Position numbers and translations under genes: made by a program. From positions 1 through 21,618 of IMG/VR virus record IMGVR_UViG_3300027741_000305: a DNA stretch of 21,618 nt. One strand, given 5' to 3'. This document shows positions 4,980 to 19,669 of the stretch, one piece after another; positions within the stretch are counted from its first letter, which is position 1; every line of letters starts with the position of its first letter. This DNA comes from a virus. The notes beneath the pieces were generated by a model. The model saw nothing but the letters and a program-made list of their open reading frames with translations, had not been told where the DNA came from and did no database searches.

Positions 4980-6365
4980 ATGTCATATCTAGCTGAAGAA
5001 ATTCAAAACAAGTGGAAGCCAGTGCTTGAACACACTGATCTTCCAGAAATCAAGGACAGTCATCGTCGTGCGGTTACTGCTCAAGTTCTAGAAAACACAG
5101 AAAACGCAATTCGTGAAGCACGTTCTGTTGGTATGGGTGGTTCAGGTTTCCTTAGCGAAGCTGCACCAGTAAACTCAATGGGCGCATCTTCATCAACTTA
5201 TTCTGATGGTGCAGTCGATACTTTTGATCCAGTACTTATCTCACTAGTTCGTCGTGCGATGCCAAATCTTGTTGCTTATGATATCTGCGGCGTTCAGCCA
5301 ATGACAGGTCCAACAGGACTTATCTTTGCAATGAGAGCACGTTATGCTACACAAAGTGGTGATGAAGCATTCTACGGTGAAGCAAATACTGCATTCTCAG
5401 GTCGTGGTGGTTCAACAGGCATGTCAGCATCAAACGCTGGTTATGATGCTGCGACATCAGTTGGTGGCGCTGCTAGCAACATTGGTCTTTCACCATCAGC
5501 TAACACAAACGCAACAAACAGCCTTTATAACTTTGGTGGTGGTATTAAGACTTCTGCTGCTGAAGGTCTAGGTTCAGGCACAACATTCCCAGAAATGGCT
5601 TTCTCAATCGAGAAGGTTGCCGTAACTGCTAAGAGCCGTGCGCTAAAGGCAGAATATTCACTAGAACTAGCACAAGACCTTAAGGCAATTCATGGTCTTG
5701 ACGCTGAAACAGAACTTTCAAACATTCTGTCAACAGAAATTCTAGCTGAAATTAACCGTGAAGTTATCCGTACAGTAGTTATTTCTGCTCTTCGTGGCGC
5801 TGATGAAGGCACAACAACTAAGGGCGTTTTCGATCTTGACACCGATTCAAATGGTCGTTGGTCAGTTGAAAAGTTCAAGGGTCTAATGTTCCAGCTTGAG
5901 CGTGAAGCTAACGCAATCGCTAAGGGTACCAGACGTGGTAAGGGTAACATCGTTATCTGTTCTTCAGACGTTGCGTCTGCACTTCAGATGGCTGGTGTTC
6001 TTGACTATGCCCCTGCTCTTAACAGCAACAACCTAAACGTAGATGACACAGGCAATACCTTTGCTGGTGTTCTTAATGGTCGTCTTCGCGTTTACATCGA
6101 TCCATATGCTGGTTCTAACTACCTAGTAGTTGGTTACAAGGGTAGCTCAGCATTTGATGCTGGTCTGTTCTACTGCCCATATGTTCCACTACAGATGGTT
6201 CGTGCTGTCAATCCTGATAGCTTCCAGCCAAAGATCGGCTTCAAGACACGTTATGGTATGGTAGCCAATCCATTCGCACGTGGTGCAAGCGATGCAAATG
6301 CTGGTGCTATTGCTGAAGATACCAATCAGTACTATCGTCGTGTTCTAGTACAAAACCTTCTCTAA
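4980..6365 (+). CDS. 23: Major capsid protein gp23 precursor
   Basis: A 461-residue HK97-fold capsid protein of the T4 gp23 family, shorter than T4 gp23 (521). Family features include the N-terminal helical propeptide (MSYLAEEIQNKWKPVLEH), the LISLVRRAMPNLVAYDICGVQPMTGP region (about residues 83-108) and the FKTRYGMVANPF C-terminal block. A gp21-type cleavage sequence, LSE followed by AAPV, occurs at residues 58-60, so removal of about the first 60 residues is predicted; T4 gp23 loses 65. The region of residues 115-200 is Gly/Ser/Ala-rich and probably forms surface loops. The gene has its own late promoter and is closed by a strong hairpin terminator, fitting the highest-expressed virion protein. 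No gp24 vertex paralogue follows. Confidence 0.97.
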   Translation: MSYLAEEIQNKWKPVLEHTDLPEIKDSHRRAVTAQVLENTENAIREARSVGMGGSGFLSEAAPVNSMGASSSTYSDGAVDTFDPVLISLVRRAMPNLVAYDICGVQPMTGPTGLIFAMRARYATQSGDEAFYGEANTAFSGRGGSTGMSASNAGYDAATSVGGAASNIGLSPSANTNATNSLYNFGGGIKTSAAEGLGSGTTFPEMAFSIEKVAVTAKSRALKAEYSLELAQDLKAIHGLDAETELSNILSTEILAEINREVIRTVVISALRGADEGTTTKGVFDLDTDSNGRWSVEKFKGLMFQLEREANAIAKGTRRGKGNIVICSSDVASALQMAGVLDYAPALNSNNLNVDDTGNTFAGVLNGRLRVYIDPYAGSNYLVVGYKGSSAFDAGLFYCPYVPLQMVRAVNPDSFQPKIGFKTRYGMVANPFARGASDANAGAIAEDTNQYYRRVLVQNLL

Positions 6366-6387: not shown

Positions 6388-6427
6388 AAAAAATTGGGGG
6401 AGGGTCGAAAGGCTCTCCCCTTTTTTT
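6388..6427. terminator. Bidirectional rho-independent terminator after gp23
   Basis: A 10-bp stem GGGGAGGGTC / GGCTCTCCCC (6397-6406 and 6411-6420) closes on a GAAA tetraloop. It is followed by T7 on the plus strand and preceded by A6 on the plus strand, which gives a U-run for minus-strand transcripts. It therefore serves both gp23 and the converging minus-strand genes. Confidence 0.93.
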
Positions 6428-6635
6428 ACTTTATAATACCATAGAAAAGAATAGTCGTAATAAATCCATTAACAACCATCAGTGGTTTATCATTCATCTT
6501 TAAACCTGCATAACCCCAAATAGAAGCACCAATAATTGAAAGAATAAGATCGGTTGTATGAAAACCAAATGCACGACATGTTGCCGCTATAATGACACAA
6601 ATTGTGCCAATCCATTTAATAATATTAAGAATCAT
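6426..6635 (-). CDS. Small three-helix membrane protein, unknown
   Basis: A 69-residue protein that is almost all membrane: three hydrophobic segments at about residues 4-21, 28-45 and 51-68, joined by short polar turns (FHTTD and KMNDKP). The start overlaps the stop of the upstream minus-strand gene as ATGA, and its stop reaches the shared terminator, so it is the last gene of the reverse operon. It has no recognisable holin or transporter motif. Inference: a small inner-membrane protein made early from the sigma70-type promoter at 6840-6868, perhaps for host take-over or exclusion. The function is unknown. Confidence 0.8.
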   Translation of the reverse strand: MILNIIKWIGTICVIIAATCRAFGFHTTDLILSIIGASIWGYAGLKMNDKPLMVVNGFITTILFYGIIK

Positions 6636-6814
6636 TGTTTACCATATGCTTTCCAACCAGAGATTGGCGAGTAGGTAAACATCAGTATGCCATCTCGTTC
6701 AATATAACATTCAAATCCTGAAGTCTCTGCATTAACCTGAGCAACATCAATACTTTCTCCTGTATATACTACAGTTCCAAAGTTGGAAAGAATGGTCTTG
6801 TAAATATTTGACAT
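6632..6814 (-). CDS. Small unknown protein of reverse early operon
   Basis: A 60-residue soluble protein (MSNIYKTILSNFGTVVYTG at the start) with alternating hydrophobic residues that suggest a small beta-rich fold. A strong AGGAG ribosome site lies 7 bases before the ATG. A sigma70-type promoter at 6840-6868 would start the mRNA only about 20 bases upstream. It shares a 4-base ATGA overlap with the downstream membrane-protein gene, which indicates coupled translation and possibly joint function. I do not recognise the family. Size, strand and promoter type fit an early host-interaction gene, by inference. Confidence 0.8.
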   Translation of the reverse strand: MSNIYKTILSNFGTVVYTGESIDVAQVNAETSGFECYIERDGILMFTYSPISGWKAYGKQ

Positions 6815-6839
6815 TTCTATCTCCTTAGCTTAGGATTTT

Positions 6840-6868
6840 TTTATAAGATATTTTTTAAGACAAGTCAA
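6840..6868 (-). promoter_or_regulatory. Sigma70-type promoter on minus strand
   Basis: Read on the minus strand: TTGACT (6863-6868), a 17-base spacer, then TATAAA (6840-6845). An A-tract (minus strand of the T-run at 6870-6879) sits just upstream of the -35 and resembles an UP element. It drives the two genes at 6814-6426. Confidence 0.8.
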
Positions 6869-6888
6869 GTTTTTTTTTTGATAAAAAC

Positions 6889-7074
6889 TTATTCACTATA
6901 AAAATTAATCAGATTACCAGAATCATCAATTGCTCTTACACGACTTGTATATCCATTCATTTTCTGTTTAGCAACTCTTTCTAAAACATAATTTATCATA
7001 GAATCACTTGTATTTGAACAAACACTAATTTGAGTCCAATTACCAGTATCTCTCATTCTTTGGATTCGAATCAT
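6889..7074 (-). CDS. Small unknown protein, first gene of reverse island
   Basis: A 61-residue protein (starts MIRIQRMRDTGNWTQISVC) with a beta-strand-like pattern and the RVRAIDDSGNLI segment near the C-terminus. It may be a small fold with one helix (residues 23-38) between strands. A clear AAGGA ribosome site lies upstream and a near-consensus sigma70 promoter lies at 7125-7153. A second promoter follows before the next two minus-strand genes, so the three may be expressed from two starts. No membrane segment or metal motif is seen. The function is unknown; an early, host-directed role is inferred from promoter type only. Confidence 0.78.
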   Translation of the reverse strand: MIRIQRMRDTGNWTQISVCSNTSDSMINYVLERVAKQKMNGYTSRVRAIDDSGNLINFYSE

Positions 7075-7090
7075 CTCTATTTCCTTACTA

Positions 7091-7098
7091 TATAAATA
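7091..7098 (+). promoter_or_regulatory. T4-type late promoter TATAAATA before gp3
   Basis: An exact TATAAATA followed by CTATT lies 72 bases before the gp3-like ATG at 7170. It lies inside the leader of the minus-strand transcript that starts near 7118, so the two transcription units face each other here. Confidence 0.8.
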
Positions 7099-7124
7099 CT
7101 ATTAGTTTTCATAACGACATACGA

Positions 7125-7153
7125 ATTATACGCATACAGACCTGACGAGTCAA
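7125..7153 (-). promoter_or_regulatory. Near-consensus sigma70 promoter on minus strand
   Basis: On the minus strand: TTGACT (7148-7153), a 17-base spacer, then a perfect TATAAT (7125-7130). Expected start near 7118, reading into the 61-residue gene at 7074-6889. Confidence 0.87.
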
Positions 7154-7169
7154 GAGGAAAAATACAAAA

Positions 7170-7643
7170 ATGTTCATGCCAGATCAAAATAACTTATCGC
7201 AACTGAATTTCAGGTTCAAGCTAAGCATCACACCTGAGTTAGAGTATCGTGCTCAGACTGTTAGCATTCCTGCTATCAACCTTGGAGCAATTTCAACTCC
7301 AACACCGTTTGTTCCATATTTCAATGCAGGTAATATAACATATGATGAACTAAACATTCAATTTATGGTTGGTGAAAAAATGGCAGACTATCTTGAAATT
7401 TTTAATTGGATTGAAAAACTTGGCCATCCAGATAACCTAGAAAATTATAAAAATATCAAGTCTGACTGTTCTGTTTTCATCCTCAATAATAACTTACAGC
7501 CACAAATCCATGTAAGATTCACAGATGTATTTCCCGTATCGTTATCAGCAATTGAATTTGACAGCACATTGCCAGAAATTCAGTATGCTACGTCTACTGT
7601 AGGTTTGAGATTTAATCGTTATTATTTTGATATATTAAATTGA
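7170..7643 (+). CDS. 3: Tail completion / tube-terminator protein, gp3-like
   Basis: A 157-residue protein with the layout of T4 gp3 and related tail-tube-fold proteins: an N-terminal FRFKLSITPELEYRAQTVSI strand region, then SIPAINLGAI (T4 gp3 has an equivalent VPIPGI block), YDELNIQFMV(G)E, YLEIFNWIEKLG (like the WIGMYEWMLG of gp3), and a C-terminal strand pair ending in RFNRYYFDIL. The gene lies between gp23 and uvsY, where T4-like cyanophages place gp3. gp3 caps the tail tube and stabilises the contracted sheath end. It has a late promoter (7091) and an AGAGGA ribosome site. The alternative is another tail-tube paralogue (gp19 or gp54 type); the order favours gp3. Confidence 0.72.
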   Translation: MFMPDQNNLSQLNFRFKLSITPELEYRAQTVSIPAINLGAISTPTPFVPYFNAGNITYDELNIQFMVGEKMADYLEIFNWIEKLGHPDNLENYKNIKSDCSVFILNNNLQPQIHVRFTDVFPVSLSAIEFDSTLPEIQYATSTVGLRFNRYYFDILN

Positions 7644-7668
7644 CAATATAACGAATCAATGTTATGAT
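7640..7668 (+). promoter_or_regulatory. Consensus sigma70 (early) promoter for uvsY operon
   Basis: A perfect TTGACA (7640-7645, overlapping the gp3 stop), a 17-base spacer and TATGAT (7663-7668). The start is expected near 7675, about 29 bases before the uvsY ATG. This marks the switch from late structural genes to the early recombination/replication operon. Confidence 0.9.
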
Positions 7669-7703: not shown

Positions 7704-8138
7704 ATGAAACTCGAAACAATCTACGCATTTTGGGCTGAAGACAGCAAGATTGACCGTATGGACCTTGGCGAAGAATCACTTAAGATTTCATCTCTCCATC
7801 AGAAATATATGGAGATATATACTAATGAGAAGATCATCCTTCGTAAGTTTGATATTGATCTAAAGGTTCTGAAGTTAGAGAAGCATGAATTCTACACTCA
7901 GGGGCCGACAAATGAAACGCAAGAAAAAGGATGGGAGCTACCTGCTATTGGCAAGGTGATTCGTTCTGATGTTCAGCAATACGTTGAAGCAGATAAGGAT
8001 ATCATTCAGCTAACACTGAAGATTGGTATTCAAAACGAAAAGGTTTCCCTACTCGAATCTATTATCAAGAACCTATCCAATCGTGGTTTCCAAATAAAGA
8101 ACGCAATCGATTGGATCAAATATACAAGTGGTGGCTAA
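7704..8138 (+). CDS. uvsY: Recombination mediator UvsY
   Basis: A 144-residue protein matching T4 UvsY (137) best in the C-terminal part. EADKDIIQLTLKIGI then IIKNLSNRGFQIKNAIDW corresponds to the SADKDVLKVDTSLQY and KSRGFAIKHIQD blocks of T4. UvsY binds single-stranded DNA and loads UvsX recombinase onto gp32-covered DNA for recombination-dependent replication. It is the first gene of the operon driven by the sigma70 promoter at 7640-7668 and has a GAAGGA ribosome site. Its stop overlaps the uvsW start as TAATG, so these two partners of recombination are co-translated. uvsW and uvsY are also near neighbours in T4. Confidence 0.9.
   Translation: MKLETIYAFWAEDSKIDRMDLGEESLKISSLHQKYMEIYTNEKIILRKFDIDLKVLKLEKHEFYTQGPTNETQEKGWELPAIGKVIRSDVQQYVEADKDIIQLTLKIGIQNEKVSLLESIIKNLSNRGFQIKNAIDWIKYTSGG
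8075..8116. repeat. Inverted repeat near the end of uvsY
   Basis: ATCCAATCG (8075-8083) and CGATTGGAT (8108-8116), a perfect 9-bp stem with a 24-base loop, ending 21 bases before the uvsW ATG. It may modulate translation at the junction, or be chance within coding sequence. Confidence 0.35.
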
Positions 8139-9619
8139 TGAGTGATGTGCATCTTGAATACATAAATGACGTTCATTGTAGAATAAGAGCCGACCCTGGT
8201 ATCTTAATGGAGCTTTCTGATAAGCTGACATTTTTTGCAGAGAACTATAAGTATCACCCAAAGTTTAAAAGTAAATTTTGGGACGGTAAGATAAGGTTAA
8301 TCAATACACTCACTGGTATTGTTTATGCTGGTCTTGCACTTCGTATTAAGAAGTATTGCGATAGTATAGGTTATAGTTTTTCTTTCGATAAAGAGTTGAC
8401 ATATGATAACGTGTCCGTTAACGAAGTATTAGAACATATTAAACAATTAGAACTCCCTGAATGGCTCGAAATCAGAGACTATCAGGTCGAGGCTGTTGTG
8501 AAGTGTTTAAGAACACGTAGAAGAACTCTTCTATCACCGACATCATCAGGTAAGTCTTTCATGATCTATTTGATAGCTACATGGTACAGTGAGAAGACGT
8601 TAATCATCGTTCCTTCAACTGGTCTAGTGGCACAGTTTGAAGATGATATTCGTTCATATGGGTTTAAGGGAAAAATCGCAACATCAATTGGTGGATTGGA
8701 AAAGAACAATAATATCGACGCTGATATTGTCATCACTACATGGCAATCGCTCGAAAATGGCAGATCGACTATGCCTAGTGAATGGTATGACCAATTCAAA
8801 GTTGTTATAGGCGATGAAGCGCATGGTTGTAAGGCAACATCTCTCATCAAGATACTCTCTGCCATGAAAAATACTCCATATAGATTTGGCACAACAGGTA
8901 CGTTAGATAACATAGAACTTAACAAAGCTACAATTGAGGGATTATTTGGTCCTCCCCATACTACTACAACAACTAGAGAACTAATTGATCAAGGTCATGC
9001 GTCAGACATTAAAATAAAATGTATTGTCCTTGAATATCCTGATGATGTTATCAAGGAATTCCATAAGCCAATCTTTGACCCTGTTGAGCAAAAGAACAGA
9101 AAAAAGACTTATGCAGAAGAAGTGGAATTTCTGATCAATTACCAAAAGAGAACTAAGTTTATAAGAAACTTGGCATTATCTCTCAAGGGTAATAAACTAC
9201 TGTTCTTTCGTCTAGTTTCTCATGGAAAAATTCTTCATGAAGCACTGAAAGACCAAAGCAACGCTTTCTATATTGATGGAGGCGTAAAGGATAGAGAAGC
9301 TATCCGTAAGTCAATGGAAGACGAAGAAAACGCAATTCTTATTGCATCACTTGGTACCACAAGTACGGGTGTATCTATTAAGAAATTGCACCATATGATC
9401 GCTGCTGGACCTCTGAAGTCTAAGATCAAAGTACTACAGTCCATTGGACGTATGTTGAGACAACACAAGGACAAAGAAGAGGCATACCTCTACGATATTG
9501 TAGATAATCTTAGCAAAGGAGCTAAGAAGAACTTTGCCTTAAAACATTTTGAAGAGCGTGTCAATATATACGACCAAGAAAAATTTGATTATAAAATTTA
9601 TAAGGTGAAATTAAAATGA
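8138..9619 (+). CDS. uvsW: RNA/DNA helicase UvsW
   Basis: A 493-residue superfamily 2 helicase, close to T4 UvsW in length. The N-terminal DNA-binding domain contains YKYHPKFKSKFWDGKIRLI (T4 has the equivalent RFNPRFRYGNWDGRIRLL). Walker A SPTSSGKS is at about residues 133-140, the DEAH box at 226-229 (VIGDEAH), TGTL-type motif III follows, and motif VI (QSIGRMLRQH) lies near the C-terminus. UvsW unwinds R-loops and drives branch migration, helping the switch from origin- to recombination-dependent replication. The start at 8138 (TAATG with uvsY) is preferred over an in-frame ATG at 8111, since MSDVHLEYINDVHCRIRAD aligns with the T4 start. The stop overlaps the next gene as ATGA. Confidence 0.95.
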   Translation: MSDVHLEYINDVHCRIRADPGILMELSDKLTFFAENYKYHPKFKSKFWDGKIRLINTLTGIVYAGLALRIKKYCDSIGYSFSFDKELTYDNVSVNEVLEHIKQLELPEWLEIRDYQVEAVVKCLRTRRRTLLSPTSSGKSFMIYLIATWYSEKTLIIVPSTGLVAQFEDDIRSYGFKGKIATSIGGLEKNNNIDADIVITTWQSLENGRSTMPSEWYDQFKVVIGDEAHGCKATSLIKILSAMKNTPYRFGTTGTLDNIELNKATIEGLFGPPHTTTTTRELIDQGHASDIKIKCIVLEYPDDVIKEFHKPIFDPVEQKNRKKTYAEEVEFLINYQKRTKFIRNLALSLKGNKLLFFRLVSHGKILHEALKDQSNAFYIDGGVKDREAIRKSMEDEENAILIASLGTTSTGVSIKKLHHMIAAGPLKSKIKVLQSIGRMLRQHKDKEEAYLYDIVDNLSKGAKKNFALKHFEERVNIYDQEKFDYKIYKVKLK

Positions 9620-19126: not shown

Positions 19127-19669
19127 ATGTTTGAAGAACTTTTACCAAAGATGGTTCCCTCTGTTATTTTTAAGACACGTGTTCGTGATCTTGCAGTAGG
19201 TGGCGACAATCCATATCGCTGGGAAGACGTAACCACGTTTGACCTCTTTGCAGGTAAGCGTGTTGTTTTGTTCTCTCTTCCTGGAGCATTTACCCCTACT
19301 TGCGATACATATCAACTTCCTAGTTTTGAAGATAAATTTGCTGATTTTAAGGCACTTGGTATCAAGGATATCTATTGTGTTTCAGTTAATGATGCTTTTG
19401 TTATGAATGCTTGGGCTAAGGCTCAGAACCTCAAGAACGTCAAGGTCATCCCTGATGGAAATGCCGATTTTACTCGTTATATGGGCATGGAAATTGCTAA
19501 ACAGAATTTTGGTTTCGGTTATCGTTCATGGCGCTATGCTGTAGTGGTCAATAACGGTAAGATTGAAAAGTGGTTTATCGAACCCGGTAAAAAGTATGAC
19601 GCTGAAGATGATCCTTATGGTGAAACTTCCCCTGAAAACATTCTAGAATGGATTAAGAACAATGGCTAA
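19127..19669 (+). CDS. Prx5-type peroxiredoxin
   Basis: A 180-residue thioredoxin-fold peroxidase of the Prx5/AhpE-like group. The peroxidatic motif PGAFTPTC is at residues 52-59, with Cys59 and the Thr-(x)-Cys arrangement, inside VVLFSLPGAFTPTCDTYQLP. Further family blocks are IYCVSVNDAFVMNAWAKAQ and SWRYAVVVNNGKIEKWFIEP. It should reduce hydroperoxides using a thiol donor. Start at ATG 19127 follows AAGGA; a GTG at 19106 in frame is weaker. It starts 43 bases after tRNA-Arg, and its end overlaps the next gene by 8 bases. A peroxiredoxin is not part of the T4 core and was probably acquired; codon use resembles that of the core genes. Confidence 0.93.
   Translation: MFEELLPKMVPSVIFKTRVRDLAVGGDNPYRWEDVTTFDLFAGKRVVLFSLPGAFTPTCDTYQLPSFEDKFADFKALGIKDIYCVSVNDAFVMNAWAKAQNLKNVKVIPDGNADFTRYMGMEIAKQNFGFGYRSWRYAVVVNNGKIEKWFIEPGKKYDAEDDPYGETSPENILEWIKNNG

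Follow-up and report, generated by a model that had tools for sequence, protein, structure and literature searches.

An antisense cassette of small genes with variable cargo at the gp23-gp3 junction of a T4-like phage

A T4-like phage fragment of 21.6 kb (virus record IMGVR_UViG_3300027741_000305; 21,618 nt, the whole of which we call the window) carries, between gp23 and gp3, an antisense island of three short genes whose first gene and promoter are kept in close relatives while the other genes are exchanged. On balance, we favor reading this island as a modular moron-type operon that is transcribed early by the host polymerase and occluded late, and whose small products interact with the host. 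Its sequence features suggest an early-expressed accessory cassette that probably serves host take-over or counter-defence.

Matches to Pfam and PHROGs gave the gene order portal gp20, small head genes, scaffold gp22, gp23, the island, gp3, uvsY, uvsW, gp55, gp47, gp46, gp45, gp44, gp62 and regA (Table 1). The stretch beyond regA includes, at 19127-19669, a gene for an antioxidant protein of peroxiredoxin type (phrog_2281, E 7e-65). The island sits where the late virion block gives way to the replication block, gp3 being the sole gene between the island and the uvsY-uvsW-55-47-46-45-44-62-regA block. This bears on an earlier remark, in a first-pass annotation of the window, that early-type promoters stand amid late virion genes: the promoters are present, but an early promoter at such a late/early border is not unusual, since only gp3 precedes the replication block and uvsY has a sigma70-like promoter of its own (TTGACA-17-TATRWT, present in all four genomes compared).

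Table 1. Features of the island and its borders (positions in the window).
Feature	Position	Strand	Evidence
gp23 major capsid protein, left border of island	4980..6365	+	phrog_138, E 6e-170
gp23 terminator hairpin at convergent island end, possibly bidirectional	6396..6421		hairpin retained in relatives
Gene A, 69 aa, predicted three-helix membrane protein, Pfam DUF6552	6426..6635	-	profile match and AlphaFold model
Gene B, cargo gene of 60 aa with own promoter	6632..6814	-	75% and 70% identity to relatives in L091 and L123 (other contexts)
P2, sigma70-type promoter of gene B, TTGACT-17-TATAAA	6840..6868	-	common to B copies in L123, less exactly L091
Gene C, 61 aa, constant first island gene; predicted beta-beta-alpha-beta-beta domain	6889..7074	-	77-84% identity in 4/4 island-bearing relatives
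T4-type late promoter of gp3, TATAAATA, facing P1, 26 bp between	7091..7098	+	found in 6/6 sequences covering the site
P1, sigma70-type promoter of island, TTGACT-17-TATAAT	7125..7153	-	kept in L092, L093, L094, L096, L099 (17 nt) and L100 (16 nt)
gp3-position tail protein, right border of island	7170..7643	+	phrog_45, E 6e-33
uvsY sigma70-type promoter, TTGACA-17-TATGAT, overlaps gp3 end	7640..7668	+	kept in three relatives
uvsY, first gene of replication/recombination block	7704..8138	+	Pfam UvsY, 2.7e-27

In the sense of transcription the genes on the minus strand follow one another as C, B and A, and the early observation that they run against all others was borne out, the ORF listing of the window having no further substantial minus-strand ORF and all its other substantial ORFs on the plus strand. 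Are these three short frames truly genes? In each, silent changes greatly outnumber replacements: dN is 0.08-0.21 against a dS of 0.6-1.0 for C (distant pairs), and pN is 0.16 against a pS of 0.79 for B. A retains 62-78% identity across more than 10 viral contigs. These patterns indicate that A, B and C are genuine genes, with purifying selection on all three, and together with the retention of the frames in relatives they rule out spurious ORFs. Strong ribosome sites had been ascribed to the island, and those of B (AGGAG) and C (AGGAA) are indeed good, but A has no obvious one. Because its start overlaps the stop of B by 4 nt (ATGA) and a site of its own is not obvious, translation of A is probably coupled to that of B.

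An antisense island lies at the same junction in four relatives (L092, L093, L094 and L099), and the comparison agrees with the suggestion of an inserted cassette: the frames and promoter are conserved and the cargo is variable, C and P1 being kept and other genes swapped. From P1 outward the cargo is C-B-A in the window, C-D-A in L092, C-D-E in L094 and C-E-F in both L093 and L099; C is thus first in all five islands, the genes that follow differ, and A is missing from three of the five. Nor does the cargo follow the gp23 tree: the sister phages L092 and L099 (support 96/88) differ, with C-D-A and C-E-F, respectively, and L093 and L099 have common cargo and are not sisters. In the 72.5 kb relative G001, no counter-strand block other than the island is convincing. 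Relatives of B occur in unrelated contexts in L091 and L123. In L123 (1790-2707) B and A share a strand and are separated by about 540 bp, and the L091 contig (L091/L109) has the two about 6 kb apart; A and B may therefore travel together.

What might the products do? The three functions had been called undescribed, but A is not wholly so, since it belongs to a Pfam family, DUF6552. We found nothing convincing in Pfam or PHROGs for B, C, D, E or F, and PADLOC gave no hit on A-E; protein F contains paired CxxC motifs which, from the sequence, look zinc-binding. The AlphaFold model of C (pLDDT 89) has the order beta-beta-alpha-beta-beta, and its best PDB matches (VIA) are Dmd of T4 and RB69 (Z 7.3/7.0, rmsd 2.3, 54 residues), followed by a designed protein and AcrIF9. 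Dmd (60 aa) is of similar size and has the compact order of elements predicted for C, at an identity of 7-11% (7-12% with AcrIF9 included). Foldseek matched C to Dmd with a probability of 0.77-0.96 and E 0.3-0.8. A match of Z about 7 is within the chance range for small folds, and profile comparison with T4 Dmd gave nothing (hhalign probability 0.3%). Dmd neutralizes the RnlA/LsoA ribonuclease toxins (PMC5308261). In T4 its gene adjoins genes 61/41, whereas C lies elsewhere, at the gp23-gp3 junction. The modeled resemblance of C to the Dmd antitoxin is no more than suggestive, and the product of C would most likely be a binding or inhibitor protein with a Dmd/AcrIF9-type fold.

Gene A matches DUF6552 (PF20189) with E 1.3e-10 and 41.9 bits, against a gathering cut-off of 27. 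Relatives of A and this family were found at 47 viral loci, and the family is present in pelagiphage HTVC008M (gp006); our literature search found no paper mentioning it, and a pattern search of bacterial contigs returned pattern matches but no relative. Across 22 diverse members aligned, K7, W8, W40, D49, L52 and N56 are invariant, and A, with the same invariant W, D and N as its HTVC008M counterpart, is a short form without the N-terminal extension. The AlphaFold model of A (pLDDT 94) has helices at 2-23, 26-46 and 50-68, in keeping with the small three-helix membrane protein that had been proposed for the end of the island. We set aside its PDB matches (generic three-helix and TPR-like folds; NuoJ at Z 9) as uninformative.

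In SemiSWEET transporters a W and an N line the substrate pocket. A is of the same three-helix size class and shares with LbSemiSWEET (PDB 4qnc) a W-x8-D-x6-N stretch in helices 2-3, W40/D49/N56 being in register with W48, D57 and N64; the PDB chain 5uhs is LbSemiSWEET with D57 replaced by alanine. Could the island, then, be an early auxiliary-metabolism or host-physiology cassette, in which A truly transports solutes as SemiSWEETs do, while the remaining genes tune host membrane or metabolism, with no role in defence? In its favor are this shared spacing, an hhalign match of 27 columns at the W-D-N stretch (E 4e-4), and the metabolic neighbors of A's relatives: those with 66-78% identity are found at other sites, surrounded by small genes, and several of them adjoin genes labeled, from their sequences, as deaminase-like and 2OG-Fe-oxygenase-like. 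However, the hhalign probability is just 34%, the monomer model matches SemiSWEET structures poorly (TM 0.43-0.56), and A, unlike SemiSWEET, has no PQ motif in helix 1, about eight residues fewer before the W and a shorter link between helices 1 and 2. Because that motif is missing and the score against MtN3_slv (PF03083), 13.9 bits, is below the Pfam cut-off of 23.7, we have not filed A as a SemiSWEET; a 38-aa LbSemiSWEET query found none in phages. Furthermore, A cannot define the island, being absent from three of five. We therefore consider a purely metabolic cassette unlikely, albeit with a real chance of being right, and A by itself might be an auxiliary metabolic gene that has nothing to do with defence. 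Within the moron-type operon that we favor, the product of A would be a minimal SemiSWEET-like membrane protein altering solute flux or membrane state.

Both sigma70-type promoters that the first-pass annotation had placed on the minus strand are there as described. P1 is one of three 11/12 sigma70 matches among those listed (18.6 kb scanned), but such matches are not over-represented overall (61 found in the window scan against 64 expected in shuffles), so it is conservation that supports P1. Across five genomes its -35 hexamer is 93% and its -10 hexamer 100% identical, while the 17-nt spacer has drifted to 49% and the 30 nt downstream to 67%, and a counterpart, TTGACC-16-TATAAT, occurs in the more distant L100. 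P2 is absent from the relatives' islands that lack B. The copy of B in L123 has, in its other context, the same promoter (TTGACT-17-TATAGT), and B thus moves with its promoter; the L091 version is less regular. At the far end, the gp23 hairpin is strong on the plus strand (z -4.1), and on the minus strand it has a 6-bp stem, with a U-run after 3 nt, and z -0.8. The earlier statement that the island shares the gp23 terminator is therefore only plausible for the minus strand.

Taken together, these signals suggest the following course. Early in infection, the RNA polymerase of the host, bound to the primary sigma factor, would read C-B-A leftwards from P1 (and P2), and the transcript would end at the gp23 terminator. 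Later, gp55-directed transcription of gp3 from the facing TATAAATA would cross P1 and occlude the island. P1 and the gp3 late promoter face each other in all relatives covering both, an arrangement that would also suit a mainly regulatory island, in which leftward transcription across the late promoter delays gp3 and the peptides matter little. Yet the strong purifying selection on the A, B and C proteins, the exchange of whole genes and the presence of B with its own promoter inside the island make such a role very improbable.

How often is this junction used? In 60 other T4-like loci the gp23-gp3 gap is 78-162 bp in 44 and 267-3791 bp, with inserts, in 16; the junction is a recurrent insertion hotspot. 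An insertion that is absent in relatives is one mark of a moron, and the 44 short gaps supply it; another, a promoter independent of the flanking operon, is seen at the level of sequence in the conserved P1 and in P2, which travels with B. On the gp23 tree the antisense islands require at least three changes, and they thus arose or were lost several times. Among the inserts in other T4-like contigs are endonuclease-like genes and a BMP-like binding protein (labels read from the sequences), as well as a 203-aa 2OG-Fe(II) oxygenase antisense between gp23 and gp3 in L022/L024 (Pfam 9e-8), where a late box reads into gp3. The BMP-like protein, of 363 aa in the L051 gap, has a signal-peptide-like start, a BMP-family periplasmic binding look and late boxes on both sides, and is possibly an auxiliary transport gene expressed late. 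G002 (3300032250_000449) has a counter-strand endonuclease-like gene at 7783-8385 and, at 84660-92000, a structural-looking block with switched strand that adjoins opposed late boxes at 84542/84561. That the island is a selfish or degenerate remnant of homing-endonuclease traffic, of no benefit to the phage, might be supposed from the endonuclease-like genes at the junction in L050, L026, L029 and L061 and an annotated homing endonuclease in Caulobacter phage Cr30, but no endonuclease occurs in the islands of the window's clade and selection has maintained the frames, the promoter and C, so we hold this to be highly unlikely.

Returning to the host-interaction operon, the turnover of its cargo, the small size of its genes, the early-type promoter and the fold of C lead us to guess at host take-over or counter-defence, a plausible role that leans on the resemblance of C to Dmd. 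A bolder proposal would make the junction a counter-defence exchange locus, with a fixed P1, a C of Dmd/AcrIF9 fold, swapped inhibitors and a late reset by the gp3 promoter, and would make the DUF6552 member a minimal phage protein, of about 65 residues, of the SemiSWEET superfamily; we consider this combination doubtful. The gp23-gp3 gap is a precise, reusable address for exchangeable small genes in several T4-like lineages, and sorting T4-like genomes by this gap would list candidate genes for host take-over or counter-defence, C, B, D, E and F being the short candidates supplied here. Additionally, our comparisons hint at an evolutionary link between the uncharacterized DUF6552 proteins of marine phages and the SemiSWEET transporters.

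The antisense arrangement of the window is not unique. In the Sinorhizobium phages phiN3 and phiM12 (Emdodecavirus) and in Cr30, antisense short hypothetical genes likewise occupy the gp23-gp3 junction, near uvsY. There are six in phiN3 and six in phiM12, compared with three in the window, and about a dozen in Cr30, along with a tRNA and the annotated homing endonuclease. HMM comparison detected no relation of the island genes of these three phages to A-E, and the phiN3 block, unlike the window, has neither a 10/12 sigma70 match nor a TATAAATA match. In a published tree these three phages fall in one clade with DLP6 (PMC5349666), which has only a plus-strand exonuclease at the junction. All through positions 74758-85943 of Cr30 (KF301602), gp3, uvsY and uvsW stand as single core genes between reverse-strand blocks of small genes, an extreme form of the layout of the window. 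Accessory cassettes between T4 core genes are a known kind of feature, and the island is one of them; its antisense layout is unusual, and it recurs at gp23-gp3 in several lineages.
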